Below, one piece after another: positions 5,173 to 32,324 of a stretch of DNA of 45,542 nt (positions within the stretch are counted from its first letter, which is position 1; the number at the start of each line of letters is the position of its first letter). The DNA lies in assembly GCA_005885125.1 (NCBI GenBank), contig VAXU01000012.1, positions 1 to 45,542 on the forward strand. Reading direction: 5' to 3'. This DNA comes from Actinomycetota bacterium. GTDB taxonomy: Bacteria > Actinomycetota > Thermoleophilia > Gaiellales > Gaiellaceae. Below the pieces are notes generated by a model. It was not told the DNA's origin. It did no database searches and saw only the letters and a program-made list of their open reading frames with translations. The position numbers were made by a program, and so were the translations under genes.

Positions 5173-5898
5173 TTAGGCCCGCTTCCACATCGCCGCGTAC
5201 TGCTCGTCCGGCATCGCCTCCGCTGCGCGGATCAGCGCCTCGACGTCGAACGGAACGCGACGGAACTCGACGCCGAGCTTCCCGTCGTCGGCGGTCAGGA
5301 CGGCATACTCGGCCCAAGGGTCGAACGGCCGCTCGTCCATGGGCTCCTTGTGCTCGTAGACGAGGCCGACGGAACCGGCACAGAACCAGATCCCGCGGCC
5401 CGCGCGGCGAAGCCATTGGAGGTGGACGTGGCCGCCGGCCACGGCATCCGCACGGCCGATGAGCTCCTCGACTTTCTCCCGCGGCGTCTCCGGGAGGACG
5501 ACCTCCTCGTTCGACGCCGGGGAGCCGTGACAGCAGACGAGCCTGCTCCCGCTGACGTCGAGCTCGACCGTCGGCTCGAACGCGCCGAGGAAGGCGAGCT
5601 GCTCGTCGCCGAGCTGTTGCTCCGACCACCGGCCCACCGTGACCAACTGCTCGCGCCGTTCGTCGTCCACCTCCTCACTTCCCAGCTCGAGCGTCAGCAG
5701 GAACTCGTCGGAGTTCCCGAGCACGCAGCGGCAGCCGAGCTCACGCAGCCGGTCGATGCACTCCGCCGGCTGTGGGCCGCCCTGCGCGACGTCACCGAGG
5801 GAGACGACCGCGTCGAAGCGCTCGAGCTCGAGCTCCCGCAGCACGGCGTCGAACGCGACGGCGTTGCCGTGCATGTCGGCGATCAGCGCGACGCGCAC
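5173..5898 (-). CDS. Metallophosphoesterase (calcineurin-like)
   Basis: [47 protein letters not shown] motifs. Confidence 0.85.
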   Translation of the reverse strand: MRVALIADMHGNAVAFDAVLRELELERFDAVVSLGDVAQGGPQPAECIDRLRELGCRCVLGNSDEFLLTLELGSEEVDDERREQLVTVGRWSEQQLGDEQLAFLGAFEPTVELDVSGSRLVCCHGSPASNEEVVLPETPREKVEELIGRADAVAGGHVHLQWLRRAGRGIWFCAGSVGLVYEHKEPMDERPFDPWAEYAVLTADDGKLGVEFRRVPFDVEALIRAAEAMPDEQYAAMWKRA

Positions 5899-6290
5899 GC
5901 CTGGAGACTAGCCAGGCTGCGTGCGAGCTCCGGCTCGGTTGCGACGAAGTCGAGCGGATACGCGTGCGACGCACGCCAGCCACCCTCGTGCTCGACGACG
6001 CGACCCCAGAGCAGCACGCGACCGAGGACGCGGGCCACGGTGCCGGGCTCGTCGCGGCCGCGCAGGTAGGACCAGACGGTCGCAGGCTCACGGGCCGCGT
6101 GGATGCCACAGGAGCACTCTTCATTCGGTGCCTCGTGTCGGCCGCCGCCGTCGCACCGTGCCACGAGCTCCGTCCCGCGCGGCCACAGCTCCTCGTGGAT
6201 CACCGACCCGAGCCGCAGCCCGTCCGCCGTCGCGACGACGCACCAGACGCGCCAGCCGATCAGCGCCTCGGCGTAGTCGGGAGCGCGCAC
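5883..6290 (-). CDS. Conserved hypothetical protein
   Basis: GTG-start ORF with actinobacterial-type sequence ([35 protein letters not shown]); adjacent to the metallophosphoesterase. Confidence 0.65.
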
Positions 6291-6873
6291 GGCCGCGCGG
6301 CGCCATCACCTGGTCGGCGAGGCCGTACTCGACCGCTTCCTGGGGCGACATGAAGTGGTCGCGGTCGATGTCCTTGACCACCTTCTCGAGCGGCTGGCCG
6401 CTGTGACGCGAGATGATCTCGGACATCCGCTGCGTCATCTCCAGGATCTCCTTGGCGGCGATCTGGATGTCCGCGGGACTGCCCCGGAAGCCGCCGGAGC
6501 CCTGGTGGATCATCACCTTCGCGTTCGGCAGGACGTAGCGCTTGCCCGCGGCGCCGCCGCACAGGATCATCGCGCCCGCCGACATCGCCATCCCGATCGC
6601 GTACGTCGCGACGTCCGCCTTGACGAACTGCATCGCGTCGTAGATGGCCATCCCAGCATACGACGAGCCGCCCGGTGAGTTGATGTAGAGCGAGATGTCC
6701 TTGTCGGGATCCTCGGCGTCGAGGAAGAGCAGCTGCGCGGTGATGAGGTTCGCGATCGAGTCTTCGACCTCCTGGCCGAGGAAGACGATCCGCTCGCGCA
6801 GCAGCCGCGAGTAGATGTCGAAGGAGCGCTCGTAGCGGCCGTCCTGTTCGACGACCATCGGGATGAGTGGCAT
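6121..6873 (-). CDS. clpP: ATP-dependent Clp protease proteolytic subunit ClpP (C-terminus abnormal)
   Basis: [28 protein letters not shown] (Ser), [10 protein letters not shown] (His), [21 protein letters not shown] (Asp). The last ~55 codons read through the downstream gene in another frame. Confidence 0.85.
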
Positions 6874-6892
6874 CGGGCCTCCCTGGTAAAGT

Positions 6893-6935
6893 GCAACCGT
6901 TCGGTTGCGCCTAGTATACGCAACCCTCCGGTTGC
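6893..6935. promoter_or_regulatory. Two tandem operator-like palindromes, GCAACCG-TT-CGGTTGC (6893-6908) and GCAACC-CTCC-GGTTGC (6920-6935), centres 27 bp apart, flanking TATACT (minus strand, 6918-6913)
   Basis: Direct reading; lies between divergent clpP and AHSA1-arsR starts. Confidence 0.6.
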
Positions 6936-6949
6936 GGATTGGAGGAGTC

Positions 6950-7297
6950 ATGGAGGTCAGCCGCGAGATCGAGTTCCCCGTCCCGCCGGATGAGGTCTGG
7001 GAGGCGCTGACGGATCCCGAGCAGCTCGAGGAATGGTTTGCGAACGACGTCGAGCTCGATCTCCGCGAAGGCGGCGCGGGCATCTTCCGATGGGAGGACG
7101 GCGAGGAGCGCCGGGCGACGGTCGTGGTCGCGGAGCCGCCCGAGCGGCTCGTGCTGGACTGGGAGGACGAGGGCGAGACCGAGTTCACGCTCGAGGAGAC
7201 GGACGACGGCACGAGGCTGCACGTGCGGGAGTCGACGCCCGAGTTCTCGACCGCGCTCGAGCTGCGCGCACTCGCGCTTTCGCTCGCGCACACGTGA
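6950..7297 (+). CDS. SRPBCC/AHSA1-family protein
   Basis: [42 protein letters not shown] typical AHSA1; upstream GGAGGAG. Confidence 0.85.
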
Positions 7298-7641
7298 CAG
7301 ACCCCACCGGCCGCGTGTTCGACGCGCTCGCCGATCCGAATCGCCGCTACGTCGTCGAGGCGCTGGCCGAGCGCGGGACGGCGACGGCGACCGAGCTGGC
7401 GGCGGAGCTCCAGGTCTCCCGCCAGGCAGTCGCCAAACACTTCGCGGCCCTCGGCGAGGCGGGGCTCGTCGAGAGCCGGCGCGAGGGACGGGAAACCCGG
7501 TACGAGCTGACGCCGCAGCCGCTCGCCGGCGCGCTCGACTGGATGGCCGACGTCGGCGGCAAGTGGGACGCGCGGCTTGCGGCCCTTCGGAAGCTCCTCA
7601 GCAGCGGGTCCAGGCGACACTCGCGGCGTCCGCGGTCCTAA
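7294..7641 (+). CDS. ArsR-family HTH transcriptional regulator
   Basis: [74 protein letters not shown] overlap with the AHSA1 gene. Last ~13 codons lie in the tandem repeat. Confidence 0.9.
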
Positions 7642-7938
7642 ACGCGCTTGTGCGACGGACGCGCGGGCCAAGCCCGCACGTCCTCTAGGTCGGCATCGAC
7701 AAGCGACGCCTCAGCAGCGGATCCGGGCGACACTCGCGGCGTCCGCGGTCCTAAACGCGCTTTTGCGACGGACGCGCGGGCCAAGCCCGCACGTCCTCTA
7801 GGTCGGCGTCGACAAGCGACGCCTCAGCAGCGGGTCCGGGCGACACTCGCGGCGTCCGCGGTCCTAATCGCGCTTTTGCGACGGACGCGCGGGCCAAGCC
7901 CGCACGTCCTCTAGGTCGGCGTCGCAAGCGACGCCTCA
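7596..7938. repeat. Tandem repeat: three units of 113, 113 and 112 bp plus the start of a fourth, each with two hairpins
   Basis: CCTCAGC(A/G)GCGG recurs at 7596, 7709, 7822 and 7934; units near-identical. Each unit contains GGACGCGCGGGC-CAA-GCCCGCACGTCC and a GGCRTCG..CGACGCC hairpin. Confidence 0.95.
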
Positions 7939-9270
7939 GCGGCGGATCCCGAAGCGGCGGAGGCGGCGCTCGGCGCCGGGAATGATGCGGTTGAGCGCGT
8001 CCAGCAGATCGCCGGGCTGCGCGATCCCGTAGGCGTTCCGCGCTGCGTAGTGGTGCAGCGCGCAGTTGACACGGCGTGCCTGCCCGAGCGACGCCAGCGC
8101 GACGACGCCGCCGCCGTACACCTCGCGGAAGTAGGCGACCTGACGCGTGTTCCAGTAGGACATCGGCGAGCCGACGTGCTGGAACTCCGAGCTCGGCGAA
8201 GTTGCGATGCTCCCGGGGAGGCCGCTGCCGAGCTGCAACTGGCCCCACGTCGCGAGCGCTTCGTCGAGCCACGGATCGCGCGCCTGGTCGTTGCCGACGA
8301 GCGAGTAGAACCATTGATGCGCGGTCTCGTGGTCGACGATCACGCGCAGGATGGGGCTCGCGCCGATGAAGGTGAGTGTCGGATACTCGATGCCGACGCT
8401 GCGGAGGTCGGGCGGAACGACGACCGTATATGTCTTCCACGGATACGCCCCGTAGAGTCGCGACAGGCGTTCGAGCGCGCGAACCGCCATGCGCAGGACG
8501 TTGGGACCTTCGACTTGGGCCGACCGTGCGACGCCCACGACGACCGTGACGGGGCGCGGCGCGCGCGCGATCGCCGTGAAGACCGAGAAGCGTCCCACCG
8601 CAACCGCGACGTCCCGGACGCCGTGCGCATGCCAGTGGTCCGTCCCAACCCGCGTGCCGGACACGAGCGCTTCCATCCCTGACGGCCCATCGACGCGAAC
8701 GTCGAAATCGGAGGCGGGAGTCGTGGAGCTCTCCCCCAGGATCTTTGCCGGCGGATCGGTGACCCAGCCGCGTCGCGGATCCCACGCAAGGATTGGAAAG
8801 AAGGAACCGAGGCGAACGCCGGCGGCGAATCGCGACACGCGGTCGCGCGCGTCTAGGGGAACGCGCAGCCGCCACGGTAGGTGGACCGCGATCGTCTCGC
8901 CGGCCCGGAGCTGGACTCGCAGAACGAGCGTCGTCGGGTCAGGGCGGGCCGCGTGCAAGGTGTGGCCGCCCGCAGTCGCATCGCCGACGTCGAGGCGTGT
9001 GCCCTCCCGTTCCTGCAACGGCCCGTTGGGCCAGAGACGGAAGACGAGCCGTTGTGTCGGTCGGTTCGGCGTGAACCGCACCGTCAGGTCGCCGCTGACC
9101 TCCTTCAGATCGGAGTCGACGTGCACGTTGACCTCGTAGCGCGGCCGGTCGATGCGCGGCGGCGGCGAGGGTGGGACGGCCGGGCAGGCGAACACGACGG
9201 AATCGTGCCCGACCGTAGAATCGCGCGGTGGAACAGCGTGAGATCGGTCGCGCGGGCGTGCAGCTCTCAC
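7936..9270 (-). CDS. M1-family-like zinc metallopeptidase (true start probably inside, near 9200)
   Basis: VDHETAHQWFYSLVGNDQARDPWLDEALATWG (HExxH-18-E) with GIEYPTLTF upstream; N-terminal beta domain. Confidence 0.85.
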   Translation of the reverse strand: MRAARPRDRSHAVPPRDSTVGHDSVVFACPAVPPSPPPRIDRPRYEVNVHVDSDLKEVSGDLTVRFTPNRPTQRLVFRLWPNGPLQEREGTRLDVGDATAGGHTLHAARPDPTTLVLRVQLRAGETIAVHLPWRLRVPLDARDRVSRFAAGVRLGSFFPILAWDPRRGWVTDPPAKILGESSTTPASDFDVRVDGPSGMEALVSGTRVGTDHWHAHGVRDVAVAVGRFSVFTAIARAPRPVTVVVGVARSAQVEGPNVLRMAVRALERLSRLYGAYPWKTYTVVVPPDLRSVGIEYPTLTFIGASPILRVIVDHETAHQWFYSLVGNDQARDPWLDEALATWGQLQLGSGLPGSIATSPSSEFQHVGSPMSYWNTRQVAYFREVYGGGVVALASLGQARRVNCALHHYAARNAYGIAQPGDLLDALNRIIPGAERRLRRFGIRR

Positions 9271-10172
9271 GGGTCGTCCTCGGCTGCGGCAACTTCGGCG
9301 GGATCGGGTCGGCGCCCGAGCTGTTCGGCCAGGGCGAATCGGAGGAGCGGGCGTTCGCCGTCATGGACGCGGCCTGGGCGCTCGGTATCTCGGCGTTCGA
9401 CACGGCCGACGCGTACGGAGGCGGCCGCAGCGAGACGGCGATCGGCAGGTGGATGCGCTCGACGGGGAACCGTCCCACGCTCACGACGAAGACGTTCAAT
9501 CCGATGGACGCGGGCCAGGATCACGGTCTCGGGCGCGACCGCATCCTCCGGCAGATCGAGTCCAGTCTCGGTCGCCTGGGCGTCGACCGTGTCGACCTCT
9601 ACCTCGCGCACGCGTTCGATCCCGAGACGCCGCTCGCTGAGACGATCGCGACGTTCGAGGAGCTCGTCGAACGCGGGCTGACCCGGGCCTACGGTGTCAG
9701 CAACTTCGACGACGAACAGTTGCGCGCCGCTCTCGACGCTGGCCGCCCGGCGCTCGTGCAGAACTCCTATTCCCTGCTGGAACGTGGTGACGAGCGCGAC
9801 GTGCTGCCGTTGTGCGCCGGGCGCGGGATCGCGTACGAGGCCTTCAGCCCGCTTGCGGGCGGCTGGCTGACCGGAAAGTACCGCCGGGGCGAGGAGCCGC
9901 CGGCCGGGTCGCGGATGACCCAGCGCCCGGAACCGTACGAGCACCTTCGAGACGATCGAGTGTTCGATGCGCTGGAGGCGTTCGACGCTGCCGCCGCGCA
10001 GCGAGGAGTCGACAGCGCAGCACTCGCCCAGGCGTGGCTGCTCGCACAGCCGAACGTCACGGCCGTGATCGCCGGCCCGCGCCGGCCCGAGCATCTTCAC
10101 ACCGCGTCCGACGCGCTCGAGCTCGAGCTCGGGCGCGCGGAGGCCGACGAGCTCGCGGCGCTCTTCGGCTAG
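9228..10172 (+). CDS. Aldo/keto reductase
   Basis: LGCGNFGGIGS..FDTADAYGGGRSETAIGRWM..RVDLYLAHAFDP..AYGVSNFDDEQL. Confidence 0.9.
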   Translation: MEQREIGRAGVQLSRVVLGCGNFGGIGSAPELFGQGESEERAFAVMDAAWALGISAFDTADAYGGGRSETAIGRWMRSTGNRPTLTTKTFNPMDAGQDHGLGRDRILRQIESSLGRLGVDRVDLYLAHAFDPETPLAETIATFEELVERGLTRAYGVSNFDDEQLRAALDAGRPALVQNSYSLLERGDERDVLPLCAGRGIAYEAFSPLAGGWLTGKYRRGEEPPAGSRMTQRPEPYEHLRDDRVFDALEAFDAAAAQRGVDSAALAQAWLLAQPNVTAVIAGPRRPEHLHTASDALELELGRAEADELAALFG

Positions 10173-10214
10173 AGGCGTTGGTCATGAATTCGATCGGTTC
10201 GACCGGTCGTTTCA

Positions 10215-10272
10215 GACGGACGCGCGGGCAAAGCTCACGTGTCCTGACGGCGGCGCCGCAAGCGGCGCCTAG
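10215..10272. repeat. Diverged single copy of the 7596-7938 repeat's dual-hairpin part
   Basis: gacggacgcgcgggcaaagctcacgtgtcctgacggcggcgccgcaagcggcgcctag vs gacggacgcgcgggccaagcccgcacgtcctctaggtcggcgtcgcaagcgacgcctcag. Confidence 0.8.
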
Positions 10273-10880
10273 GGCGAAAGGCGCTCGATCGTCCAGCCGC
10301 TGCCGTCGCGACGGTACCGAAGGCGGTCGTGGAGGCGGTCCTCGCGGTGCTGCCAGAACTCGTAGGTGTCCGGGAGGAGGCGGAAACCGCCCCACTCCGC
10401 CGGCAGCGGCACCTCTTCGGTTTCGTGTTGCGACTCGAGCTCGGCGAAGCGCGCTTCGAGCTCGTCACGGCCTTTGAGCGTGCTGGACTGCCGAGATGCG
10501 AGAGCAGCGATCTGGCTCGCGCGAGGCCGCGAGTGGAAGTAGCGCTTGCTCTCCGCGGCCGACGTGCGCTCGACGACTCCCTCGATCCGCACTTGCCGGC
10601 CGAGCGGGTCCCAATAGAAGAGCAGCGCGGCGCGCGGGTTCGACGCGAGCTCGACGCCCTTTCGGCTGCCGTAGCCGCTGAAGAAAACGAAGCCGCCCTC
10701 GTCGAAGCTCTTGAGAAGGACCATCCGCACGGAAGGCACAGCGTCCTCGCTCGCGGTTGCGACCGCCATCGCCTCCGGCGCGCGCACGACGCCTGCCGCC
10801 TCGCGGAACCATGCCTCGAACTGCCGCAGCGGGTCGGGATCGAGGTCGCTCTCGAGCAGCGGCCGCGCGCGTTCGTCCAC
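10269..10880 (-). CDS. pdxH: Pyridoxamine 5'-phosphate oxidase
   Basis: DPLRQFEAWFREA, AVATASEDAVPSVRMVLLKSFDEGGFVFFSGYGSRKGVELASNPRAALLFYW, C-terminal EFWQHREDRLHDRLRYRR. Confidence 0.93.
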   Translation of the reverse strand: MDERARPLLESDLDPDPLRQFEAWFREAAGVVRAPEAMAVATASEDAVPSVRMVLLKSFDEGGFVFFSGYGSRKGVELASNPRAALLFYWDPLGRQVRIEGVVERTSAAESKRYFHSRPRASQIAALASRQSSTLKGRDELEARFAELESQHETEEVPLPAEWGGFRLLPDTYEFWQHREDRLHDRLRYRRDGSGWTIERLSP

Positions 10881-10895
10881 GGGAAGGAGCCTACT

Positions 10896-11705
10896 GTGGT
10901 CGCGCGGAAGTCTTCTCCGGTGCGCCGGCTCCTCCCGATCCTCCTCGTCGCCGTGCTCGCCGCGGGTTGCGGGAAGTCGTCGTCGCACAAGGCGTCGCCG
11001 CCGACGTCGACCGGCTCGACGGTGTCGACGACGACGACGGAGTCCGTTCCCCGCGTCACGACGACGTTCGTGCGCGTGTACTTCCTGCGCGGCGGCAAAG
11101 TCGCCCCGGTCGGGCGCGAGGTGCCTGACACGAGAGCGGTTGCGTTCGCGGCGTTGGAGCAGCTCTTCGGGGGACCGAGCTCGGTGGATCGGGCGGACGG
11201 GCTCACGTCCGGGGTGCCTGCGAACGCGTCGCCGGCTGCGGTCACGCTCGTCGGCGGCGTCGCGGTCGTCGACCTGCCGCAGCTGTCGCGCGCCGGCCTT
11301 GCGCAGGTCGTCTACACGCTGACGCAGTTCTCGTCGGTTCGAGGCGTGCGGACTGCGCGGTCGATCGGCGACACGAAGCCGCTCACGCGCGCGGACTTCG
11401 AGGATGTCACGCCCCAGATCCTGGTCGAAAGCCCGTTGCCGCACGAGCCGGTGGCGAGCCCGCTGCACGTTCGCGGCACCGCGAACACCTTCGAGGCGAC
11501 CTTCGACGTTCAGCTGTTCGATTCGGCGGGCCGGAAGCTGTTGCAGAGGTTCGTCACGGCGACGTCGGGCTCAGGCACGCGCGGAACCTATGACGTGACG
11601 CTGACCTTCCCGGACACGGTGGAGCCGCGCTGGCTCGAGGTGTTCGAGCCGTCCGCCGAGAACGGCCAGCCGCTGCATCGAGTCCGGATCCCGCTCAACG
11701 GCTAA
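10896..11705 (+). CDS. GerMN-domain lipoprotein with Gmad2-like C-terminal domain
   Basis: Lipobox LAAGC; TFVRVYFLRGGKVAPVGREV..AALEQLFGGP (GerMN); SPLPHEPVASPLHVRGTANTFEATFDVQLFDSAGR (Gmad2-like). Confidence 0.8.
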   Translation: MVARKSSPVRRLLPILLVAVLAAGCGKSSSHKASPPTSTGSTVSTTTTESVPRVTTTFVRVYFLRGGKVAPVGREVPDTRAVAFAALEQLFGGPSSVDRADGLTSGVPANASPAAVTLVGGVAVVDLPQLSRAGLAQVVYTLTQFSSVRGVRTARSIGDTKPLTRADFEDVTPQILVESPLPHEPVASPLHVRGTANTFEATFDVQLFDSAGRKLLQRFVTATSGSGTRGTYDVTLTFPDTVEPRWLEVFEPSAENGQPLHRVRIPLNG

Positions 11706-11720
11706 AACGGGCATGTCCCA

Positions 11721-11813
11721 GGGACTGTCCCTCCCCAGGGACTGTCCCGCATAGGACTGTCCCTCCCCAGGGACTGTCCCGCATAGGGACTGTCCCCCCG
11801 AGGGGACTGTCCC
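11721..11813. repeat. Array of six GGGACTGTCCC palindromes (one missing its first G) in a convergent intergenic region
   Basis: Copies at 11721, 11738, ~11753, 11770, 11786, 11803; higher-order ~32-33 bp unit GGGACTGTCCCTCCCCAGGGACTGTCCCGCATA. Confidence 0.95.
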
Positions 11814-11822
11814 TGACCTGAC

Positions 11823-12482
11823 TCAACGGAACAGGTCTCGGTCGGCCGGCATGGCGAGGTCGCGCGCTCGCGCGTCACCGCGCAGGCGCAGTCCGCGCAC
11901 GACGGCGCCCGGGACGCCCTCGACCTTCCCCATCACGAGCTCCGCCGCCCCGGCGATCTCGTCGGCGACGGCGATCATCGTCGCGTGGAGCTCGTAGCCG
12001 ACGGGGTCGTGCTTTCCGCGCAGGTCGAGGACGACCGGGAGCCCGGCTGCGCCGATCGCGACGTCCGTCGTCCCCTGCCGCCACGGGCGGCCGAACGAGT
12101 CCGTGACGAGAACACCGACCGTGCGGCCGGTGAGCTCCTGCACGCGCTCGCGGATGCGCGCCGCCGATGCGTCCGGATCCTCCGGCAGGAGCACGAGCAT
12201 GCCCGGCTCGGGAGCATTCGACGTATCCACTCCGGCCGAGGCGCAGATGAAGCCGTGGCGCGTCTCGGCGATCACGAGCGGGGGCCGCACGCGGACGACG
12301 CGGGCCGCCTCGCGCAGGATCACCTCGATCCGACGCGGGTCCTCGTTACCTGCGACCTCGCGCGCACGGTCGGACGGATCGACGTCCGCGAGCCGGACCA
12401 CGCGTCCCTCGGACTTGGAGACGATCTTCTGCGCCAGCACGACGACGTCCCCGTCCTCGAGGCCGACCGCCTCGGCGACGAG
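11823..12482 (-). CDS. cofE: Coenzyme F420:L-glutamate ligase, apparently N-terminally truncated
   Basis: LVAEAVGLEDGDVVVLAQKIVSKSEGR...TDSFGRPWRQGTTDVAIGAAGLPVV..RGKHDPVGYELHATMIAVADEIAGAAELVMGK. Homology-like frame begins right after an in-frame TGA (12485-12483); no normal start codon. Confidence 0.8.
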   Translation of the reverse strand, partial: LVAEAVGLEDGDVVVLAQKIVSKSEGRVVRLADVDPSDRAREVAGNEDPRRIEVILREAARVVRVRPPLVIAETRHGFICASAGVDTSNAPEPGMLVLLPEDPDASAARIRERVQELTGRTVGVLVTDSFGRPWRQGTTDVAIGAAGLPVVLDLRGKHDPVGYELHATMIAVADEIAGAAELVMGKVEGVPGAVVRGLRLRGDARARDLAMPADRDLFR

Positions 12483-13051
12483 TCACGTGGACGATCACCG
12501 CCGTCATGCCCTCCAAGGCGCGGGCATTCGGCAACGGCCCGGCGTCGATTGCGCGACCGCTCACGAGGTGCTGGCCGAGCTCGAGCACGAGCTGCTTGGA
12601 GTCGGCGTCGTCGCCGCAGACGAGAACGTCCTCGTCGAGCAGGCCGGACTGGGCGAGCTGCGCCGCCGGCAGCGCCTGGAAGCCCGAGACGACCGGCCCG
12701 GCGACGATTGCGGCGACGTCCTCGGCGATCGAGCCGGCGTCACGCGCGGGAAACACGCCGTGCTTTTCAAACCGGAGCTCGCTGGCGACGCAGAGCACAG
12801 GCGCCGCGCCGATGACCGGCGCGAGGTCGCGTGCGGTGTCGATCGCAGCGCTGGATTGGACGGCGAGGACGACGAGGTCCGCATCGCGCACCGCCTCCTC
12901 GTTCGTCGCGCCCGAGACCCCGAGCACCGCAGCCCGCTCTTGCGCACGCGCCGCGTCGCGCGAGCCGATCGTGATCTCGACTCCGGCCTCGCGCCACCGG
13001 GCGGCGAGGCCGCGGCCGAAGGCACCTGTGCCGCCGACGATTGCGACCTTC
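12482..13051 (-). CDS. npdG: NADPH:F420 oxidoreductase-like protein (NpdG/FNO family), C-terminus apparently lost
   Basis: VKVAIVGGTGAFGRGLAARWREAGVEITIGSRD ... SGFQALPAAQL ... ALEGMTAVIVHV, then the frame runs into Arg-rich out-of-frame sequence to 12346. Confidence 0.8.
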
Positions 13052-13982
13052 ACGCGACCGCCATCGCGTCGAGTACAGCCTCGACGAGCCTCCGCCGCGC
13101 GTCCGCGTCCGACATCAACGTCCGCGTCACCACCGGCCGCACGCCGAGCCCCGCGACCGCTTCGACATGCTCCGCATCCGCCTCGTCGAACACGAGCGCA
13201 TCGATCAATCCCGCGTAACACTGCGTTACGTGCGCCGGGGACGTGCCTCCCTCGAGGCGCTGGAGCATGTCGGCCGCCGGCCCTTTCACCGCACGGCCGC
13301 CGATCAACGGACTGACGGCGACACACGGCACACGCCGCCGTTCGAGTGCTCGGCGGATCCGCTCCACCGCCAGGATCGGGCCGATCGACACGTAGGGATT
13401 GCTGGGCGCGATCAGGATCGCGTCCGCCTCGTGCAGCGCGTCCAGCACGCCGGGTGCGGGTCGCGCATCTGCCGCACCCTCGAACCGCACGCGGTCGACG
13501 GGATCCCGGTGAGAACGCGCAACGAACCACTGCTGGAACGAGTACCCGCCGTTCGGGGTCTCGAGCCACGTGCGCAGCGGCTCATCCGATGCCGGCAGGA
13601 TCGTCGACTCCAGGCCGACGGCCGCGGTCAGACGTGCTGTGACTCGCGACAACGGCTCGCCGGCGCGGAGCCGCTGCGTGCGCACCAGATGCAAGCCGAG
13701 GTCACGGTCGCCGAGCTTGAACCACGACTCGCCGCCGAACTCGTCCGCGGCGGCGAGCGCGTTCCAGGACTCCTCCGCCCGTCCCCAACCGCGCTCCTCG
13801 TCGGCAAGTCCCGCCAGCGCATAGAGGACACTGTCGAGGTCGGGCGAGACGTAGAGGCCGAGCACCTCGAGGTCGTCGCCGACGTTGACGATCGCCGTCA
13901 CGCTCGCAGGATCGACCGCCTCGACGACGCCGCGCAGAAAGCGGGCGCCCCCGACGCCGCCCGTGAGCACAGCAACCCTCAC
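13050..13982 (-). CDS. cofD: 2-phospho-L-lactate transferase
   Basis: VRVAVLTGGVGGARFLRGV..IVNVGDD..LGLYVSPDLDSVLYALAGLADEERGWG..SNPYVSIGPIL..SPLIGGRAVKGPAADML. Confidence 0.95.
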   Translation of the reverse strand: MRVAVLTGGVGGARFLRGVVEAVDPASVTAIVNVGDDLEVLGLYVSPDLDSVLYALAGLADEERGWGRAEESWNALAAADEFGGESWFKLGDRDLGLHLVRTQRLRAGEPLSRVTARLTAAVGLESTILPASDEPLRTWLETPNGGYSFQQWFVARSHRDPVDRVRFEGAADARPAPGVLDALHEADAILIAPSNPYVSIGPILAVERIRRALERRRVPCVAVSPLIGGRAVKGPAADMLQRLEGGTSPAHVTQCYAGLIDALVFDEADAEHVEAVAGLGVRPVVTRTLMSDADARRRLVEAVLDAMAVA

Positions 13983-14476
13983 GCGCGCGCCGGCTCGTTG
14001 AGGTAACCGCGCGTGAACCTCCCGACGCGGTCGCGCACGCGCTCGAGATCCTCCCACGTGTCGACATCGTCGCGCATGCCGGGCAGCGCGAGCCGAGCAG
14101 CGCGGAGATGGTCGCCGAATCGCTGCGCACTGCCCGGACCGTAGAACGGCTGGAAATCACCGGCGTCCCCGAGGGCGAGGGCGTTCGTCGTCCCATCGCG
14201 CGCGGCGACAAGCGCCGGCGCCGAGCTCGTCAAATCCTCGATCTCCGTGCTCGTCACGCACGGAATGTCGCCGTTGAGGATGGTCACCGGGCCGCGAAGC
14301 GGCTTGAGCGCCGCCGCGACCGCTTCGTTCTGGCCGCCCGGCGCGTCGACGATCAAAGCTTCCTCGCCGAGCGCGTTCACCGCCGCGGCAACGTCCCTCA
14401 TCATCTGCCGGGCAAGCTCCGTATCTCCGAGCCGAGTCTTGCCCCGGAGGCGGAAGAGAATCAGGAAGGTCGCCAC
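13979..14476 (-). CDS. cofC: 2-phospho-L-lactate guanylyltransferase (short)
   Basis: Position in F420 operon; LRGKTRLG, GPVTILNGDIPCVT, DGTTNALAL, FYGPGSAQRF, LRDDVDT-like motifs. Confidence 0.75.
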   Translation of the reverse strand: MATFLILFRLRGKTRLGDTELARQMMRDVAAAVNALGEEALIVDAPGGQNEAVAAALKPLRGPVTILNGDIPCVTSTEIEDLTSSAPALVAARDGTTNALALGDAGDFQPFYGPGSAQRFGDHLRAARLALPGMRDDVDTWEDLERVRDRVGRFTRGYLNEPARA

Positions 14477-14496
14477 GCGGCAAGACTAACGAGACG

Positions 14497-17615: not shown

Positions 17616-17896
17616 AGGTTCGAAGCGGCGCTGCCCGGCCCGCTCGACGTCCACTCGGCGACCTCGAACCAGTGCGTCGCGCGCAGCGCCTCGCCGACCT
17701 TCGGATCCGTGTGCGCGGCGTAGAAGACGTGACGTTCGAGATCGCAGCAGATCGCGACGTCGTCGAGCGAGATCTCCGGGATCTTCATCAGCGCCTCGCC
17801 CGGCAGCTTCGCCTCGGCGACGGTGTAGTGCTTGAACTGGAGATCGGGTGCGTACTCCATCAAGATCGGCCAATCGGGACAGGTCCGCGAGCTCAT
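17612..17896 (-). CDS. Conserved hypothetical protein
   Basis: 94-aa ORF with plausible globular composition; ATG start; near-overlap with flanking genes. Confidence 0.6.
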   Translation of the reverse strand: MSSRTCPDWPILMEYAPDLQFKHYTVAEAKLPGEALMKIPEISLDDVAICCDLERHVFYAAHTDPKVGEALRATHWFEVAEWTSSGPGSAASNL

Positions 17897-18995
17897 CTGA
17901 CAACCCTTTCAGCCTGCGCCTCGATCTCCTCTGCCGACCAACGTCCCTCCAGCCGGACGGCGCCGCGCTCGTCGCCGGCAGGGTAGACGACGAAGACGAG
18001 TGCGTCGTCGAGCCAGTGGTAGAGACGTTCGCCACTGACGTCCGTGAGCCCGAGCCGCACGTGGAAACGGCCGTCTGTCAGTGGAAGTTGCTCGACCTCG
18101 AAGCGGATCGTCAACGTGGTCGTCGACTCGTCCCAGCCGAGCTCGTCGGTGGGCTGGCCGCCGCCTGCGAGCAGGAGGCCGGATTCGTCGCGCACCTCGT
18201 ACGACAGCCGAGGCGACGGCAACGGCCGCTCCGCGACAAGGCGTAGGCGGAGCGCCATCGGCTCGCCGCCGAGGAACTGCGTCCGCTCCTCGCCGTCAGG
18301 GCCGAGCAGCACGGCGTCCTCGATTCGAGCCTCGCCTGTGCCCCACTCCTTCAGACCCGCGCCGCGCTCGTCGGGGTCGCGGTCTGCCGCGAGGAGCCGC
18401 CTGTAGCGGACGATCGCGTCGTGCGTGGGGCCGTCGAACTCCATGTTCCCGTCCCGAAGCAGGATGGCGCGGTCGCAGAGCCGCTCGACGGCAGCGGCGT
18501 CGTGCGACACGAACACGATCGTGCCTCCGCGCTGCTTGAACTCGAAGATCTTGCCGAAGCACTTGCGCTGGAACTGTTCGGCAGGCCGGCGAAGGCGACG
18601 ATCTCGTCGAGCTGCTCGCGGATGTACGCGCGCTGCAGGCCGTGGATCGACCCGTTCAGGAACACGTTCTCGCGACCGGTCATGTCCGGGTGGAAACCGG
18701 CGCCTAGCTCGAGCAGCGAACCGACCCGGCCTCCCGCCTCCGCACGGCCGGAGGTCGGCTTGATGATCCCGGAGATGAGTCGGAGGAGCGTCGTCTTCCC
18801 CGAGCCGTTCCGGCCGACCAGCCCGACGGCGCTGCCCGGGTCGACCTGGAAGGAGACGTCGCGGAGCGCAACGACGTCCTGGCCGCGCGCGCGGCCGCGG
18901 GCGACGACGAGATCCTTCAGCCGCCGCGCCTCGCGCGGATAGACCCTGAAGTGTCGCGAAGCCTGCTCGACGCGAATCTCGCCCGGCTGGATCAC
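17893..18995 (-). pseudogene. wzt: Polysaccharide ABC transporter ATPase (Wzt-like) interrupted by an apparent deletion/frameshift
   Basis: Frame 1 (18995-~18585): VGLVGRNGSGKTTLLRLISGI...LDEIVAFAGL. Frame 2 (~18585-17893): EQFQRKCFGKIFEFKQRGGTIVFVSHDAAAVERLCDRAILL plus Wzt-type C-terminal domain. Signature and Walker B regions absent. Confidence 0.85.
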
Positions 18996-19801
18996 GCCCC
19001 CGAGGGTACCGAGAGGGCCCGCCGAACCAGGCCGGCCAGGACTTGGACGAAGGCGCGGTCAGCGTTCGGCATGTCGATTCGGTCGAGGTGCATCCCGAGC
19101 TCGCGCGCCTTCTCCCGCGCCTCGTGGTCGAGGTCCCAGCGGATCTCGAGGTGGTCGGCGACGAAGCCGACCGGGCAAACGAGGACGTCGGCGACGAACG
19201 TCCACGTTCGGAGCCCTGCCCGCTCCGCGACGAGCTGTGACGTCTCCAGGAGCTGGTCCTTGTAGGGATCGCCGGTTTCGAGGACGCGGGCGGGGAGCGA
19301 GTGTGCCGTGAACACGACGTGGGCCTCGGTGCCGCGCACGCGGTCGGCCAGCACCTCGACGAAGCCCGCATCGTCGTGCCAGCTGTCGATGAACGCGAGC
19401 TCGGCGCGGCCCTCGAGCGCCTCCGCGAGCTGGGTGCGGTAGCCGCCGATCGACATCGCGGAGTAGTGCGGGGCGAGCACGAGACCGACAACCGTTTGCG
19501 CGCCGCCGGCGACTGCTCGCTCCGCCGCGTCGGCGATCCGCGGCGTCCAGTGCTTCATCCCGGTGAAGACGGGCACGTCGAGCTCGCGCTCGAGCGCCGC
19601 GCGCGTCTGCTCGGTGATCGCGTTGAGCGGCGATCCGTCCTCGATCCCGAGCAGGCGATACCGCTGGACGAGATCGTCGAGCAGCTCCGGTCGAATCGGC
19701 CGCCCACCGCGGATGTCCGCGTAGTACGCGGGGACGTCGCCGAGCCGCTCGGGCGACCCGTAGGCCATCAGGACGACGGCGACCGGCGCAGCTCCCGTCA
19801 C
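18992..19801 (-). CDS. hemH: Ferrochelatase, apparently lacking an internal segment
   Basis: AVVLMAYGSPERLGDVPAYYADIRGGRP, LAPHYSAMSIGGY, FTAHSLPARVLETGDPY, CPVGFVADHLEIRWDLD; 269 aa. Confidence 0.88.
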   Translation of the reverse strand: MTGAAPVAVVLMAYGSPERLGDVPAYYADIRGGRPIRPELLDDLVQRYRLLGIEDGSPLNAITEQTRAALERELDVPVFTGMKHWTPRIADAAERAVAGGAQTVVGLVLAPHYSAMSIGGYRTQLAEALEGRAELAFIDSWHDDAGFVEVLADRVRGTEAHVVFTAHSLPARVLETGDPYKDQLLETSQLVAERAGLRTWTFVADVLVCPVGFVADHLEIRWDLDHEAREKARELGMHLDRIDMPNADRAFVQVLAGLVRRALSVPSGA

Positions 19802-21028: not shown

Positions 21029-21051
21029 CGCCGCCCTAGACTAGCCCCGGC

Positions 21052-21786
21052 TTGGAACGACTCGGCGAGCACCCCGTCCCATCCGGACCGCTGGCCATGC
21101 GCTGGCTCGCGCTCGACGTGCCGCCGGTGCAAGCGGGGACGCTCGCACGCATCGGCGTCGAGCTGGAGAACGCGGGCGGCGCACCGTGGCGCGGGCTCAA
21201 CCTCTCGTACCACTGGCTCGACGAGCGCGGAAATCCGATCGTGTGGGACGGGATTCGCACGCCGGTCGAGGCGGCGCCCGGCGAGCTACTCCGGGTCGAC
21301 GCGCCGGTGCGCGGCCCGATCCCACCCGGTTCGTACAGGCTCGCCCTCGACCTCGTCGACGAGGAACGGTTCTGGCTGGCCGAGCTCGGCAACCACACTC
21401 CGACCGTCGACGTCGACGTCGAACCGCGTGACGCGACCGCGGCGCGCGCGTTCGTGCCGAACGGCCTCGAGCTCGCGCCCGACTGGGAGGAGCGCGTGTA
21501 CGTCGCACACACGGAGGGTTACGCAGCGGTCGGCGGCTCGATCGCGTACGAAGGCGGGCGGCTGAAACGCGCGACTCCTGCGGAGCTCGAGCCGTACAGG
21601 CCGGGCGGAGGACGCAACCCGGGCTTCGCGCATCCGCTCGTGTGTCCCTCGCTGATCCCGCCGCTCGAACCGAACGCCGAGGTGTTCGGCCTCCCCGCCT
21701 GGCGCCCGGAGGGCGACGAGCCCTGGCTCTACGACGCTCGCGTCGCGCTCAGACTTCCACCGCGATCTGATCGTCGACGCGCGTGA
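21052..21786 (+). CDS. Hypothetical protein with N-terminal CARDB/Ig-like segment
   Basis: LALDVPPVQAGTLARIGVELENAGGAPWRGLNLSYHWLDERGN..PPGSYRLALDLVDEERFWL; 38-bp convergent overlap with wzm. Confidence 0.65.
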   Translation: MERLGEHPVPSGPLAMRWLALDVPPVQAGTLARIGVELENAGGAPWRGLNLSYHWLDERGNPIVWDGIRTPVEAAPGELLRVDAPVRGPIPPGSYRLALDLVDEERFWLAELGNHTPTVDVDVEPRDATAARAFVPNGLELAPDWEERVYVAHTEGYAAVGGSIAYEGGRLKRATPAELEPYRPGGGRNPGFAHPLVCPSLIPPLEPNAEVFGLPAWRPEGDEPWLYDARVALRLPPRSDRRRA

Positions 21787-22546
21787 AGACGAACGCGCCC
21801 AGCGCGAGCGCGACGATCGAAGCAACGACGAGGTAGATCACGTCCGACACGCGCGGGAGGTCCCCGTAGAACAACGGCGCGCGCAGCGCCTGGATCGCCG
21901 GGGAGAGCGGATTCCCCCAGTGGATTATCTCGACCACCTTGTGATGCTTCGAGATGTCCGGCGAGCTGAGCGGGTACAGCACCGGTGTCAGGAAGAACAA
22001 TGGCAACAGCAGCGCGGCGACGAGGAACTCGATGTCTCGAAAGAGGACGTCGAGTGAGGCGATCGCCAGCGCGAGGCCGCTAGCGATCGCGACGACACCG
22101 GCCGCGATCGGAATCGCGAGCCACTCCGTCGCCCGCACGCGCGGCAGGAGCGCGAAGTTCAGCGCGAGCAGTCCCACCAGCATGACCGCGAACGACACGA
22201 GGTGCGTGGCGACAATCGAGAGCGGCACGAGCTGGCGCGGGAAGCGCGTCTTCCGGATCAGGTTCGCGTTGTCGAGCATCGACCGCGACGCGGACTGAAC
22301 CGACGTCGAAAAGAAGATCCACGCCGAGAGGCCGACGAGCAGGAACAGCGCGTAGTGGCCCTCCGTGCCGAACGGGGTGTGCCAGAGCACGGAGAAGACG
22401 AGCAGGTACACGGCCATCAGCAGCACCGGGTTCGCAAGCGTCCATGCGACGCCCAGGAGCGAGCCTCGGTACTTCGCCTGCACGTCGCGGCGGAAGAGAT
22501 TCCCGAAGAGCTCGCGGTAGCGGATCAGGTCGCCATAGACGGTCAT
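21749..22546 (-). CDS. wzm: ABC-2 type polysaccharide export permease (Wzm-like)
   Basis: RELFGNLFRRDVQAKYRGSLLGVAWTLANPVLLMAVYLLVFSVLW..; ATGA overlap with upstream methyltransferase. Confidence 0.9.
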   Translation of the reverse strand: MTVYGDLIRYRELFGNLFRRDVQAKYRGSLLGVAWTLANPVLLMAVYLLVFSVLWHTPFGTEGHYALFLLVGLSAWIFFSTSVQSASRSMLDNANLIRKTRFPRQLVPLSIVATHLVSFAVMLVGLLALNFALLPRVRATEWLAIPIAAGVVAIASGLALAIASLDVLFRDIEFLVAALLLPLFFLTPVLYPLSSPDISKHHKVVEIIHWGNPLSPAIQALRAPLFYGDLPRVSDVIYLVVASIVALALGAFVFTRVDDQIAVEV

Positions 22547-24575: not shown

Positions 24576-24649
24576 AGCCGCTTAACAGCCCTCGGTTAGC
24601 GTTCGGGCTCGGAGGAATCGGTGGAAGTCAGGCTCTCTGGGAGGCGCGC

Positions 24650-26467: not shown

Positions 26468-28641
26468 GCCTCGTCGCGCCGCGGACGCGCGCGGCGGGAG
26501 CCGGCGAACGGACGCTTGCCGACCGCTTCCTCGCGGCGTTCCCGCTGCTCGCGGTCTTCTTCTGGCTCTGCGTCTTCTACGCATGGGAGGCATGGCGGCA
26601 CGGCTCACCGTGGCTGTTCGGGGACGAGCTGGAGCTGACGCAGCTCTCACGCGCGATCGCCGACACCGGACACGCCGCGCGCCGAGGCCAGCCGCACTCG
26701 TTCGACTCGCTCTACACGTACTTCATCGCACCCGCGTGGCGGATCGGCAACGTGCACCACGCGTACGACGCGGTCAAGTACCTGAACGTGATCGCCATGA
26801 CCGCGACGGCATTTCCTGCCTACAAGATCGCGCGGTTCCTCGTCGGGCGGCGGGCAGCGTTGTTTGCCGCCACCGGCGCGGTCGTGATCCCGGCCCTCGC
26901 CTATTCGTCGCTGATCCTGCAGGAGTCGCTCGCGTACCCCTACTCGACGCTCTGTCTCTATCTGATCCTCGGAGCGCTGGTCCGCCGAACGCGCACGTGG
27001 ATCGCCGCCGCGGCGGTGGCGTCACTCGTCGCTCCGCTCGTGCGCGGCGAACTGGCGGTCATTCCAGCCGTGTTCGTGCTGGCCGTGCTCTTCCTCCTCT
27101 GGCGATCTCGCGCGGCAGAGACGTGGCGCGCTCGCTGGAGCGTCATGGACTGGATCGGCGCCGCAGTGCTTCTGATCGGCGCAGCGATCTTTCTGAGCGC
27201 CTACCTCGGTCATCAGTCGACGCAGTGGCTGATCGCGACCGGGTTCTACAAGCACCGCATGTGGACGCTCGGCATGCGCGCGGCCGGTGCATTCACGATC
27301 GGCCTCGGGGTGCTGCCGCTCGTCGCGGGGCTCGCCTCGCTGTGGCGAGCACCCGGAGAGATCTTCCGCTGGGAGCTGCGGGTCTTCCGAAGCGTCCTGC
27401 TCGGCTCGATCGTCTGCTTCGCTCTGTACACGGCCGTCAAGGCCTCGTACATCTCGACGTCGTTCGCGACGATCACAGTTGAGCGGAACCTCCTGTACCT
27501 CGCACCGCTCCTCATGGCGGGGACCGCCCTCTGGGTCGAGCGGCGGACGGTGCACCCCCTTGCGGTCGGCGCAGCCGCGCTCTTCGCGCTCTATCTGGTG
27601 CTGACGACGCCGTACGAGATGGACAAGCGTCTGGATTCGGACGCGTTCGGCCTCGCGCTGCTCCAGCGGCTGAACCGTGTGCAGATGTTCGCGTTCACCC
27701 CCGGCGCCGCGAAGGTCCTACTGGTCGTCATTCTCGTCGCTTCGGTCGCGGTCCTGCTCGTGACGCAGTTCGTGCGACGTGCCGGCCTCGTGGTCGCGGT
27801 CGTTGCGGCGGCGTTCGTGCTCGGCTGGAACGGCCTCGGGGAGCTGTCGGCTGCGAACGCGTCGAACGCCTTCTCGGATTCGTTCCTCTCCAACATCCAC
27901 GGGAACCCGAGGTGGCTCGACCCGATCACCGGCGGCGCGCCGACGCTTTACCTCGGTCAGCAGATGCAGGACCCGAACGGCCTCTGGCTGCTCGAGTTCT
28001 GGAACCGTTCGCTCAAACAGGTCTGGAGCCTCGACGGGACCGCCCCGGGTCCCGGGCCGACGCTCACTCCCAACCTCGACAATACGAATGGAACGCTCTC
28101 CAACGACCCGCACTATCCATACGTCGTCGCGGAGCAGGGGATCGACGTCGTCGGGAAGGTCTTGAGGGTTCATCTCCACCGCGGCGGCGGTGCGCTCGTG
28201 AAGTGGACCCTCTACCGGGTGTCGGGACCGCTTCGGCTCCGCGGCGCCGCCACGGGGCTCTACGCCGACGGCTGGTCGGGACCGAACGACTCCGCGTACA
28301 CGCGCTACTCGACCGAAGGCGGACGTGCGGGGAAGCTGAAGGTGACCGTCTCTTGGAAGCAATGGGCCGGGCCGAACCGCGCAAAGGTCACGATCACGAT
28401 TGGAACCGTGAGGATCGGGCCCGACCAGCAGCCGCGAATCGGCAAGGCGATCTCGGTGAAGACGTGGACAGTTCGTGCGCACCAGGAAAAGTCCTTCGTC
28501 CTTCAGGCCCCGGGACCGCGGTTCCGGGTGGACGTGAATGTGTCACCGCACTTCCGGCCGCACGACTATGACCCGGCGAACGGCGACCGGCGTGAGCTCG
28601 GCGCGGTGATCACATACACGTTCAGCGCGAAGAAGCGCTAG
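26464..28641 (+). CDS. GT-C fold membrane glycosyltransferase-like protein with C-terminal extracytoplasmic domain
   Basis: Many TM segments; SPWLFGDELELTQLSRAIADTGH; C-terminal GLYADGWSGPNDSAYTRYSTEGGRAGKLKVTVSW. Confidence 0.75.
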   Translation: MSLVAPRTRAAGAGERTLADRFLAAFPLLAVFFWLCVFYAWEAWRHGSPWLFGDELELTQLSRAIADTGHAARRGQPHSFDSLYTYFIAPAWRIGNVHHAYDAVKYLNVIAMTATAFPAYKIARFLVGRRAALFAATGAVVIPALAYSSLILQESLAYPYSTLCLYLILGALVRRTRTWIAAAAVASLVAPLVRGELAVIPAVFVLAVLFLLWRSRAAETWRARWSVMDWIGAAVLLIGAAIFLSAYLGHQSTQWLIATGFYKHRMWTLGMRAAGAFTIGLGVLPLVAGLASLWRAPGEIFRWELRVFRSVLLGSIVCFALYTAVKASYISTSFATITVERNLLYLAPLLMAGTALWVERRTVHPLAVGAAALFALYLVLTTPYEMDKRLDSDAFGLALLQRLNRVQMFAFTPGAAKVLLVVILVASVAVLLVTQFVRRAGLVVAVVAAAFVLGWNGLGELSAANASNAFSDSFLSNIHGNPRWLDPITGGAPTLYLGQQMQDPNGLWLLEFWNRSLKQVWSLDGTAPGPGPTLTPNLDNTNGTLSNDPHYPYVVAEQGIDVVGKVLRVHLHRGGGALVKWTLYRVSGPLRLRGAATGLYADGWSGPNDSAYTRYSTEGGRAGKLKVTVSWKQWAGPNRAKVTITIGTVRIGPDQQPRIGKAISVKTWTVRAHQEKSFVLQAPGPRFRVDVNVSPHFRPHDYDPANGDRRELGAVITYTFSAKKR

Positions 28642-28645
28642 GCGA

Positions 28646-29416
28646 TCACCAGAACGCGAGCAGGCGCTCCGGGTGCTTGCGCAGGAAGCGCGCCATCGCC
28701 TTGGCGTGCCACCAGTTGCGGCGCGTGAAGAACCGTTTGTCGATCACGGCCTGGTACTCGTGGTGCACGACGGCACTCGGCACCCACCAGCGCTCCCAGC
28801 CCGCCTTCATCGCGCGGTAGTTGAAATCGATGTCGTCGACGTACAGCTGGTAACCCGGGTCCCAGCCGCCGAGCTCGTCCAGCATCGTTCGGCGCATCAA
28901 CAGGAAAGCGCCGAGCATCGTGTCCACCTGCATCGGCTCCCCGGACGGCGCGTCGAGGAGGTAATGGCGGCGCTGCCACCTGAGCGGTGGGAACAGCAGG
29001 CGAATCGGGGTCCGGCGGACGATCGAGCCGGCAATCGTCGGGAACCGGCGGCGGGACGCCTGCAACGTTCCGTCGGGATTGACCATCTTCGGCCCGGCGA
29101 CGCCGCAGCGCGGATGGGCATCGGCAAACCCGACCAGCTCGGCGATCGCGTCGGGCTCGGGAACCGCGTCCGGATTCGAGACGATGACGTATTCGCCGGA
29201 GGTGGCGGCTATTCCCGCATTGATGTTGGCCGAGAACCCGCGCAGCTCGTGGTTCCGGATGACCTGTGCGGCGACGGGAAGGTCGCCGTCGACGCTGTTC
29301 GGGCCGTTCGCCACGACCACGAGCTCGTCCACTTGCGGCTGCAGCGCCGGGGCCGACTGTCGCATGAGCTCGGTCTCCTCGGCACCTGTGACGATCACGA
29401 TCCCGGAGACCTTCAC
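28646..29416 (-). CDS. Glycosyltransferase family 2 (rhamnosyltransferase-like)
   Basis: VVANGPNSVDGDLPV..SANINAGIAATSGEYVIVSNPDAVPEPDAI..GPKMVNPDGTLQASRRRFPT..DTMLGAFLLMRRTMLDELGGWDPGYQLYVDDIDFNYR. Confidence 0.92.
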   Translation of the reverse strand: MKVSGIVIVTGAEETELMRQSAPALQPQVDELVVVANGPNSVDGDLPVAAQVIRNHELRGFSANINAGIAATSGEYVIVSNPDAVPEPDAIAELVGFADAHPRCGVAGPKMVNPDGTLQASRRRFPTIAGSIVRRTPIRLLFPPLRWQRRHYLLDAPSGEPMQVDTMLGAFLLMRRTMLDELGGWDPGYQLYVDDIDFNYRAMKAGWERWWVPSAVVHHEYQAVIDKRFFTRRNWWHAKAMARFLRKHPERLLAFW

Positions 29417-30423
29417 GAGCCGATCGCCTCGCGGTAGGTCTGCGCCGTCGTCCGAGCAGTCTCCTCCCAGCTGAACGTCTTCGCGCGCTCGATCCCGGCG
29501 GCAGCGAGCCGCTCGCGCTGTGCGAGCGCCGCGCGAACGCACTCGGTCACGTCGTCGCCCAGGACGGCAGCGTCCCCCGCAACCTCGCGAACGGCCGGAT
29601 CGGCCAGCGCGGCAACCGGTGTGCCGCACGCCATCGCCTCGACGATCGGCAGACCGAAGCCCTCGTAGCGCGACGGGAAGACGAGGCATGCCGCGTGCTG
29701 ATAGAGCCGCACGAGCTCGTCCTTCGAGACGTAACCGCGCAGGTCGGCGCCGCGGCGGCGAAGCTCTGCGGCGAGCTCTTCGTCTTTCGTGGGCCCGACG
29801 ACGACGAGCGGGCGCTCGAGCGCGTGCGCCGCGTCGGCTGCGAGCAGCGGCTGCTTGCGGGGCTCGATCGCGCCGACGTACAGGAGGTAGGACTCGCGCC
29901 GGCCGTTGCCGAGCTGGAACGCCGGATCGACGCCAAGCGGCGTGACGACGATCTTCTCCTCCGCGACCCGGTACAGCTCGACAACGTCACGCTTCGTCCG
30001 TTCGGAGATCGCGAGCACGCGGACGGCGCCACGCGCTGCGCGCGGGACGACCGCCTTGAACGTGAGCCGCGTGCGCAGGTCCATCACACTCGGATCCCGC
30101 TCCCACGAGATGTCCTGGATCGTCACGACGGCGGGGCACGGACACCTGAGCGGCAGCGCGTGCAGAAAGTGCGCGACCGCCGGGCGGATACGCCGCAGCA
30201 GGCGCGGGACCGACCAGGCCATCCGCAGTTCCTGGCTCCGCGCTGGCAGGTTCAGCGACTCGACGCCTTCGGGCACGAGCTCGGGCCGGCGCGTAATCGC
30301 GGCGAAGCGAAGATCGTCTGCGACCCGCGGAAGCGCGCGCAGGAGCTGCTCGACGTACGTCTCGTCGCCGGTCCGCTGCCGGCCGAGCACGTCGGCGTCG
30401 ATCACAACGAGCGGCTTGCTCAA
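29413..30423 (-). CDS. Glycosyltransferase family 4
   Basis: YLLYVGAIEPRKQPLLAADAA..FPSRYEGFGLPIVEAMACGTPVAALADPAVREVAGDAAVL; TTG start, 4-nt overlap with previous gene. Confidence 0.9.
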   Translation of the reverse strand: MSKPLVVIDADVLGRQRTGDETYVEQLLRALPRVADDLRFAAITRRPELVPEGVESLNLPARSQELRMAWSVPRLLRRIRPAVAHFLHALPLRCPCPAVVTIQDISWERDPSVMDLRTRLTFKAVVPRAARGAVRVLAISERTKRDVVELYRVAEEKIVVTPLGVDPAFQLGNGRRESYLLYVGAIEPRKQPLLAADAAHALERPLVVVGPTKDEELAAELRRRGADLRGYVSKDELVRLYQHAACLVFPSRYEGFGLPIVEAMACGTPVAALADPAVREVAGDAAVLGDDVTECVRAALAQRERLAAAGIERAKTFSWEETARTTAQTYREAIGS

Positions 30424-31409
30424 GCGACCAGCTCGTTGTAGACGCCGACGGTCATGTCCGCGATCGACTTCCAGCTGAACGCCTGGGCCCGCCGGAGCCC
30501 TCGCGCGACGAGCTCGTCGCGCTGGGAGGCCGCGCGCTCGATCCCGGCCGCGATCGCGGCGGGGTCGAGTGGGTCGACGAGCACCGCCGCTCCGTCCGCA
30601 AGCTCCTCGGTGGCGCCGCCGCGACTCGTCACGACCGGTGTCCCGCAGGCCATCGCCTCGAGCACCGGGATCCCGAAGCCCTCGTACAGCGACGGGTACG
30701 CGACGCAACGCGCCCCGCGGTACAGCTCGGCGAGCTCGTCGTCGGGCACCTCGCCCAGCCACCGGACGCCGTTTCCACCGACCTCGACCCCACCCCAGCC
30801 GCGCGCCCCGACCACCCGCAGCTCGACGTCGAGGCTGCGGGCCGCGTCCACGACGCGTACCAGGTTCTTCCGCGGCTCGAGCGTGCCGACCGCGAGGACG
30901 TACTCGCCCTCGGCTGCCGGTCCGTTCCGCGTGAACGCGTCCTCGACGGCATTCGGGATGACGCGGATCTTCTCCGCGGGCACGTCGAGCAACTCGATCA
31001 GCTCACGCTTCGTGAACTCCGAGACCGCGATCACGATGCGGGCAGCGCGAACGACGCGCGGGACGACGCGCGGCCCGTACCAGCGAGACCAGCGATTGAA
31101 CGCGTCCGGATGACGCAACACGGCGAGGTCGTGCACGGTGACGACGAGCGGCGCGCGGCCGACGATCGGGCCGCGGTACGTCGGACAATGCAGGACGTCG
31201 AGGTCGCGCGCCGCGCGCGAAAGCATGAACGGGTACCACAGGGCGTCGCGCGGCAGGTTCCACGGGCGTGCTGAGCCGCCGAAGCTGAGCCGGCGTACGT
31301 CCACCTCGTCCCTACCATCGAGCTCGCGGAGCAACCCGTTGATGTAGCGCGCCGTGCCCGCGCGTGTCTGCGCGAGCGGCGAGACGTCCATCCCGACTCT
31401 GGTCGTCAC
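30420..31409 (-). CDS. Glycosyltransferase family 4
   Basis: YVLAVGTLEPRKNLVRVVDAAR..YPSLYEGFGIPVLEAMACGTPVVTSRGGATEELADGAAVLVDP. Confidence 0.92.
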   Translation of the reverse strand: MTTRVGMDVSPLAQTRAGTARYINGLLRELDGRDEVDVRRLSFGGSARPWNLPRDALWYPFMLSRAARDLDVLHCPTYRGPIVGRAPLVVTVHDLAVLRHPDAFNRWSRWYGPRVVPRVVRAARIVIAVSEFTKRELIELLDVPAEKIRVIPNAVEDAFTRNGPAAEGEYVLAVGTLEPRKNLVRVVDAARSLDVELRVVGARGWGGVEVGGNGVRWLGEVPDDELAELYRGARCVAYPSLYEGFGIPVLEAMACGTPVVTSRGGATEELADGAAVLVDPLDPAAIAAGIERAASQRDELVARGLRRAQAFSWKSIADMTVGVYNELVA

Positions 31410-32324
31410 AGCGCGTCAGCGTATCCCTGCAGGTGGATCCGGCCCGTCTCGAGCCAGGTGAACCGACCTGCGTGCTCGAGCCCGCGCTCCACCAGCTCGT
31501 CGCGGCGCGCAATCGCCTCGTGCACGGCCTCGGCAAGCGCGGCGGGATCGTCAGGATCCGCCCGGAGAGCGGCGTCGCCGGACGCCTCGTCCAGGGACGG
31601 ATGCGACGACACCACGCATGGGACACCGCAGGCCATCGCCTCGATCACCGGGATCCCGAATCCTTCGAACCGCGATGGGTAGACGAACGGCCCGCACCGT
31701 CTCGAGGTTCTTCCGCCAGTCGAGGGTCGCAGTGGTGAACGCATAGGGCCGCCCGGCGTCGTGCCGTTCGCCCTCGCGTGTGAACGCGGGGTCGATGCCC
31801 GGGTGGGCGACCCGGATCCGAGCGCGCGGTATCCCGAGCGTCTCGACGATGTCTTCCGCGGTGAACTCCGCGTTCGTGAACACGATGTCGCACCCGCGCG
31901 CCTGTTGCGCATTCGCGGTGTGCATGCGCACCGTCCGCGGATGCAGTTTCTCGGGATACTTCAGAGGCCCGAGGTCGTGGATCATCGTTGCGCGCACCCC
32001 GGCGCGCTGCGGCGGATACATCCAGTCCGTGAAGTGGAGAACGTCGAAGCGACCGACGAACCGCTCGGCCGGCGGGCGTCCGAGCCGGCTCCAGGCCCGG
32101 CGCGTCGCGTGCGCGAACGGGACGGTGAGAAACCGCTGTTCCGCCGGCACGCCGTTCAGCGCGCGCTCGAGCAACGGGCGGCCGCGGATGCTGACCGGAC
32201 CGAACGCGACCAGATCGCTCTCGCCCGCCGAGGCCTCGGCGATCCCGCGCAGCGCGCCGAGGACGTAGTTGCCGACGCCCGTCCGCGGATGCGAGAGGGG
32301 CGTCACGTCGTAGGCGATCCTCAC
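31406..32324 (-). pseudogene. Glycosyltransferase family 4 interrupted by an apparent internal deletion/frameshift
   Basis: Frame 1 from GTG 32324: VRIAYDVTPLSHPRTGVGNYV...FTTATLDWRKNLETV (to ~31697); frame 2: FVYPSRFEGFGIPVIEAMACGVPCVVSSHPSLDEASGDAALRADP to 31406. Confidence 0.85.

Follow-up and report, generated by a model that had tools for sequence, protein, structure and literature searches.

Blunt internal losses in conserved genes of an uncultured Gaiellaceae draft genome are very probably scaffold joins with underestimated gaps

Why several conserved genes in a single bacterial tract should lack short internal stretches is the question raised by the 45,542-bp DNA analyzed here (the window), which is the entire contig C106 of a draft genome (G000; 2.83 Mb, 195 contigs, 77% complete). 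G000 belongs to an uncultured member of Gaiellaceae, and the named genomes closest to it come from uncultured soil Gaiellaceae (Thermoleophilia). A preliminary description had reported missing stretches at npdG/cofE, wzt, hemH, and a GT4 glycosyltransferase gene, with a frame change at some of these loci. The window was aligned with contigs of sister genomes by blastn, which gave the lengths and positions of the blocks, and breakpoints were located by scoring every position against up to ten relatives. The flanks of hemH and wzt were additionally searched in 100 family genomes, and a genome was counted only if both flanks lay on one contig. Alignments and domain searches confirmed all four missing stretches, and the blocks were kept in the relatives. 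The features concerned are the following.

11826..12482, minus strand, remnant of cofE (F420-0:gamma-glutamyl ligase) found by domain search, the only copy in the assembly
12482..12483, minus strand, npdG/cofE junction, a blunt join with 111-118 bp lost according to the relatives' alignment
17896..18995, minus strand, wzt in two frames, with the ABC domain at 18354-18995 and the Wzt C-terminal domain at 17896-18615
18582..18583, minus strand, wzt junction, a blunt join with 124 bp lost and a frameshift
18995..19801, minus strand, hemH with an internal loss, the only copy in the assembly
19195..19196, minus strand, hemH junction, a blunt join with 84 bp (28 codons, in frame) lost
31409..32627, minus strand, GT4 glycosyltransferase gene in two frames, found by domain search
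31694..31695, minus strand, GT4 glycosyltransferase junction, a blunt join with 107 bp lost and a frameshift

At npdG/cofE, the loss removes the end of npdG together with the cofE start codon and the first ~22-35 cofE profile positions; the Pfam F420_ligase match in G000 begins at profile position 23-36, and the block was kept in all ten relatives with both flanks. In wzt, the ABC_tran match stopped at profile position 101 of 137, with Wzt_C in a different frame. The wzt block of the relatives encodes the region of the ABC signature (YSSGM) and Walker B (LLLDE) and was present in 28/28 Gaiellaceae genomes with both flanks on one contig, its 124-134 bp spread arising from overlapping alignment ends. 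In hemH, positions 2-227 and 257-316 of Pfam PF00762 were matched and 228-256 were absent, and extra bases were found in all 36 family genomes with both flanks on one contig, exactly 84 of them in 33. The GT4 loss measured 107 bp against G007 and G009 and 149 bp against G010, the block being kept in all three relatives. The halves of wzt and GT4 lie in different frames, and the hemH loss is in frame. Since the relatives agree on the length and place of the block (nine to ten of them at the three deeper sites, three at GT4), chance is excluded. The preliminary description had also proposed comparing the same loci in related genomes; the short forms were absent there, and none of the four losses was present in any relative with both flanks, so that all four are private to G000. 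Separately, hemH of G025 (G025:C50:12195-12298) carries only 32 extra bases, a shortfall of 52 bp in this region and possibly another assembly loss.

Two further loci in the window, cofC and clpP, had been suspected of deletions, and neither suspicion held.

13982..14476, minus strand, short form of cofC, ordinary and common to relatives, with no loss
6124..7671, minus strand, open reading frame that contains clpP; the ClpP domain is complete and clpP itself has no loss

The short CofC is shared with seven relatives (G001, G002, G004, G005, G007, G009, and G010), where it is the normal form. The CofC of the genus is unusually short (~165 aa) and has no Pfam match, and a longer type occupies the same place in G003 and G008, so that the genus has two types of CofC. 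The ClpP domain (PF00574) was matched from 2 to 180 of 182. Compared with G005, the sole comparator in this poorly conserved stretch, G000 is ~34 + 24 bp shorter at the 3′ end of clpP and beyond it, which may possibly represent a fifth, smaller loss. At 6124-6310, the clpP frame continues ~60 codons beyond the stop codon of the one relative available for comparison. A candidate at 21464, involving G010 and G012 only, was rejected because it was not unique to G000. Extra segments of 100-200 bp in G001, G003, G005, and G007 were likewise set aside as insertions in those genomes rather than window losses, and those examined were intergenic.

Several repeats were also observed. A tandem array at 7596-7949 holds 3.1 copies of a 113-bp unit with 96% matches. 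Part of this unit recurs in diverged form in G001 (two copies, L026:3249-3454), in G007 (L293:7220-7278), and elsewhere in G000 (L062:2985-3050), which suggests an intergenic repeat family of the genus. At 11717-11813, an intergenic palindromic unit (CCCAGGGACTGTCCC, period 17/32) is repeated in a short tandem array. On another contig of the same genome, ~170 bp at ~6755-6922 of L076 (G000:C27) matched many unrelated places in sister genomes and looks like another interspersed repeat family.

The losses had been described as clustered in this one tract, and this confinement proved incorrect. Genome-wide, 490 kb of G000 was sampled, of which ~148 kb was comparable. On contig C11, a blunt 91-bp loss was found at 42738/42739, in what is presumably a gene for a luciferase-like flavin oxidoreductase, judging the family from its sequence; the block was kept in G004, G005, and G012. 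In contig C17, a polysaccharide deacetylase gene (Pfam PF01522) is interrupted by one N at L063:1207. The left part of this gene ends ...TVDTRDYAR and the right part restarts in another frame as DGGGDRSQTLAAL..., while of six homologous places in relatives five hold 57-72 in-frame bp and one holds 12 bp. An N marks a declared assembly gap. In theory a solitary N might instead denote an ambiguous base, but such a base would not shift the frame and omit ~20 residues as this one does. It makes a telling case, in which a declared gap of one base stands for ~60 missing ones. The N-runs of the assembly vary in length (1, 49, and 132), as expected of a scaffolder that writes its own estimates; the flanks of the 49-N and 132-N runs had no colinear relatives on both sides. 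Four events were counted in 36 kb of the window, which had been selected for such events. The other 112 kb of the comparable sample, where the power was lower, gave a single firm event, to which two weaker candidates may be added, at C11 near 29690 (compared with G004 only) and at L074:8794 (compared with G007 only). The excess in the window is mild, but the higher density of events there is a point against an assembly artefact.

Similar losses were detected in two sister genomes. G002 has an N-free 142-bp loss at L023:7058 and a run of 33 N standing for ~155 bp; G006 has N-free losses of 88-91 and 77 bp and a run of 35 N standing for ~101 bp. The N-run shortfalls were thus 122 bp in G002 and 66 bp in G006. 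A 78-bp shortfall at ~13422 of L285 (G006), seen against G000 and G004, is possibly a further G006 loss. No firm private loss of this kind was found in the comparable sample of G001, G009, and G012, and no loss was common to any two species among the genomes compared. The naming of G002 (13_1_20CM_4_69_9, MNJC01) fits a study of grassland in Northern California that used idba_ud for assembly (PMC5103831), a link drawn from the name. The names of G001, G009, and G012 (AC_/14_10xx) fit a later IDBA-UD study, in which scaffolding errors were corrected in dereplicated bins (PMC6784897).

The nature of the junctions and of the retained sequence bears on how the blocks were lost. The preliminary description had proposed GC-rich or short direct-repeat sites as the trigger, and loss between such repeats could result either from slippage during replication in vivo or from a collapsed assembly graph. 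The genome is indeed GC-rich. However, the junctions were blunt: most could be placed to within 1-3 bp (the range was wider at wzt and GT4, where relatives differ in offset or are few), their ends shared no bases, and junction microhomology was absent when tested against the relatives' blocks. The GC content of the lost blocks, judged on the blocks of the relatives, was ~0.64-0.77 with a mean of ~0.70, equal to the genome average, and a search for direct repeats in matching position across the joins yielded none that would explain the losses. Blunt ends, average GC, and lack of matching direct repeats together disfavor the proposed trigger, and we regard this route as highly unlikely. Blunt junctions without shared bases would fit real, recent, repeat-independent end joining of the Ku/LigD type in a deletion-prone lineage with inactivated core genes, as would the comparable losses seen in G002 and G006. 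But several single-copy housekeeping genes are affected without a trace of relaxed selection. Differences in the retained parts of hemH, cofE, and wzt, also downstream of the wzt frameshift, are biased toward third codon positions, with rates by codon position equal to those of the intact neighbors hemE and cofD; no new stop codons were present, and tests for relaxed selection or further lesions, as expected of pseudogenes, found neither. These genes are not decaying, and real losses would all have to be very recent. End joining also has to face the identical shortfalls at N-marked gaps, the lack of any loss shared by two species, and the lack of such losses in the error-corrected assemblies, and we consider it extremely improbable. 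Its fuller form, a soil Gaiellaceae lineage with frequent blunt end-joining deletions of ~75-150 bp and several core genes just inactivated, their function being supplied by neighbors or by mixed intact and deleted chromosomes, is hardly credible either.

An assembly artefact, which the preliminary description had favored as its leading inference, is supported by the private blunt losses, the normal selection, and the mis-sized N-runs. Very probably, the losses are local errors in a short-read metagenome-assembled genome, made at scaffold joins where the gap was underestimated. Each loss is private to one assembly (36/36 at hemH, 28/28 at wzt, 10/10 at cofE, and 3/3 at GT4), gaps with N-runs of the wrong size occur in G000, G002, and G006, and the retained sequence is under normal constraint. 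The N-free events in these three genomes fall into a narrow length range of 77-142 bp, and one of the five lengths in G000 (84, 118, 124, 107, and 91) is a multiple of three, about the chance expectation. The contig graph would break over roughly 75-155 bp, and the two contig ends would be joined through read pairs with the gap length estimated too short. A positive estimate would be written as an N-run that is too short, whereas an estimate near zero or negative would abut the ends without N and leave a blunt, silent deletion. One N at L063:1207 stands for ~60 bp, and an estimate of zero or below would produce exactly the blunt unmarked losses of the window. Other artefactual steps, namely merging of read pairs by chance overlap, wrong local reassembly or gap filling, and stripping of N before deposition, would all yield internal losses of about read length, and N stripping would also yield blunt joins. 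Wrong read merging, however, requires overlapping ends, which are absent here, and wholesale N stripping is contradicted by the runs of 49 and 132 N still present in G000; these steps are, in sum, unlikely. Within the artefact class, underestimation of gap size is the likeliest step, with good though not complete confidence. We infer that read-pair scaffolding with gap underestimation was the exact step and that the genes are intact in the real organism.

On this best reading, the missing blocks are a database error, neither a biological feature nor the mark of a deletion-prone organism. Silent scaffold-join errors make intact core genes for haem, F420, and polysaccharide export look broken, and they can depress estimates of completeness and fill public databases with spurious split or fused proteins. 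Even without reads they can be recognized, as the loss occurs in one genome only, its ends are blunt, selection is undisturbed, and N-runs of the wrong size lie nearby.

IDBA-UD assemblies have been suspected of being prone to local assembly errors (Chen et al. 2020, PMC7111523). As in that work, local joins here leave coding sequences incomplete or wrong, and N-runs of the wrong length lie nearby. Chen et al. define the errors by missing read support, whereas those described here were judged by comparison of sequences alone, and their N error is an N inserted despite overlap, whereas the gaps here are too short. Pseudogenes made by real deletions, through end joining or slippage, share with the present cases blunt internal deletions in still recognizable genes; unlike them, the genes of this window show no decay in their remainder, and the same shortfall recurs at N-marked gaps.
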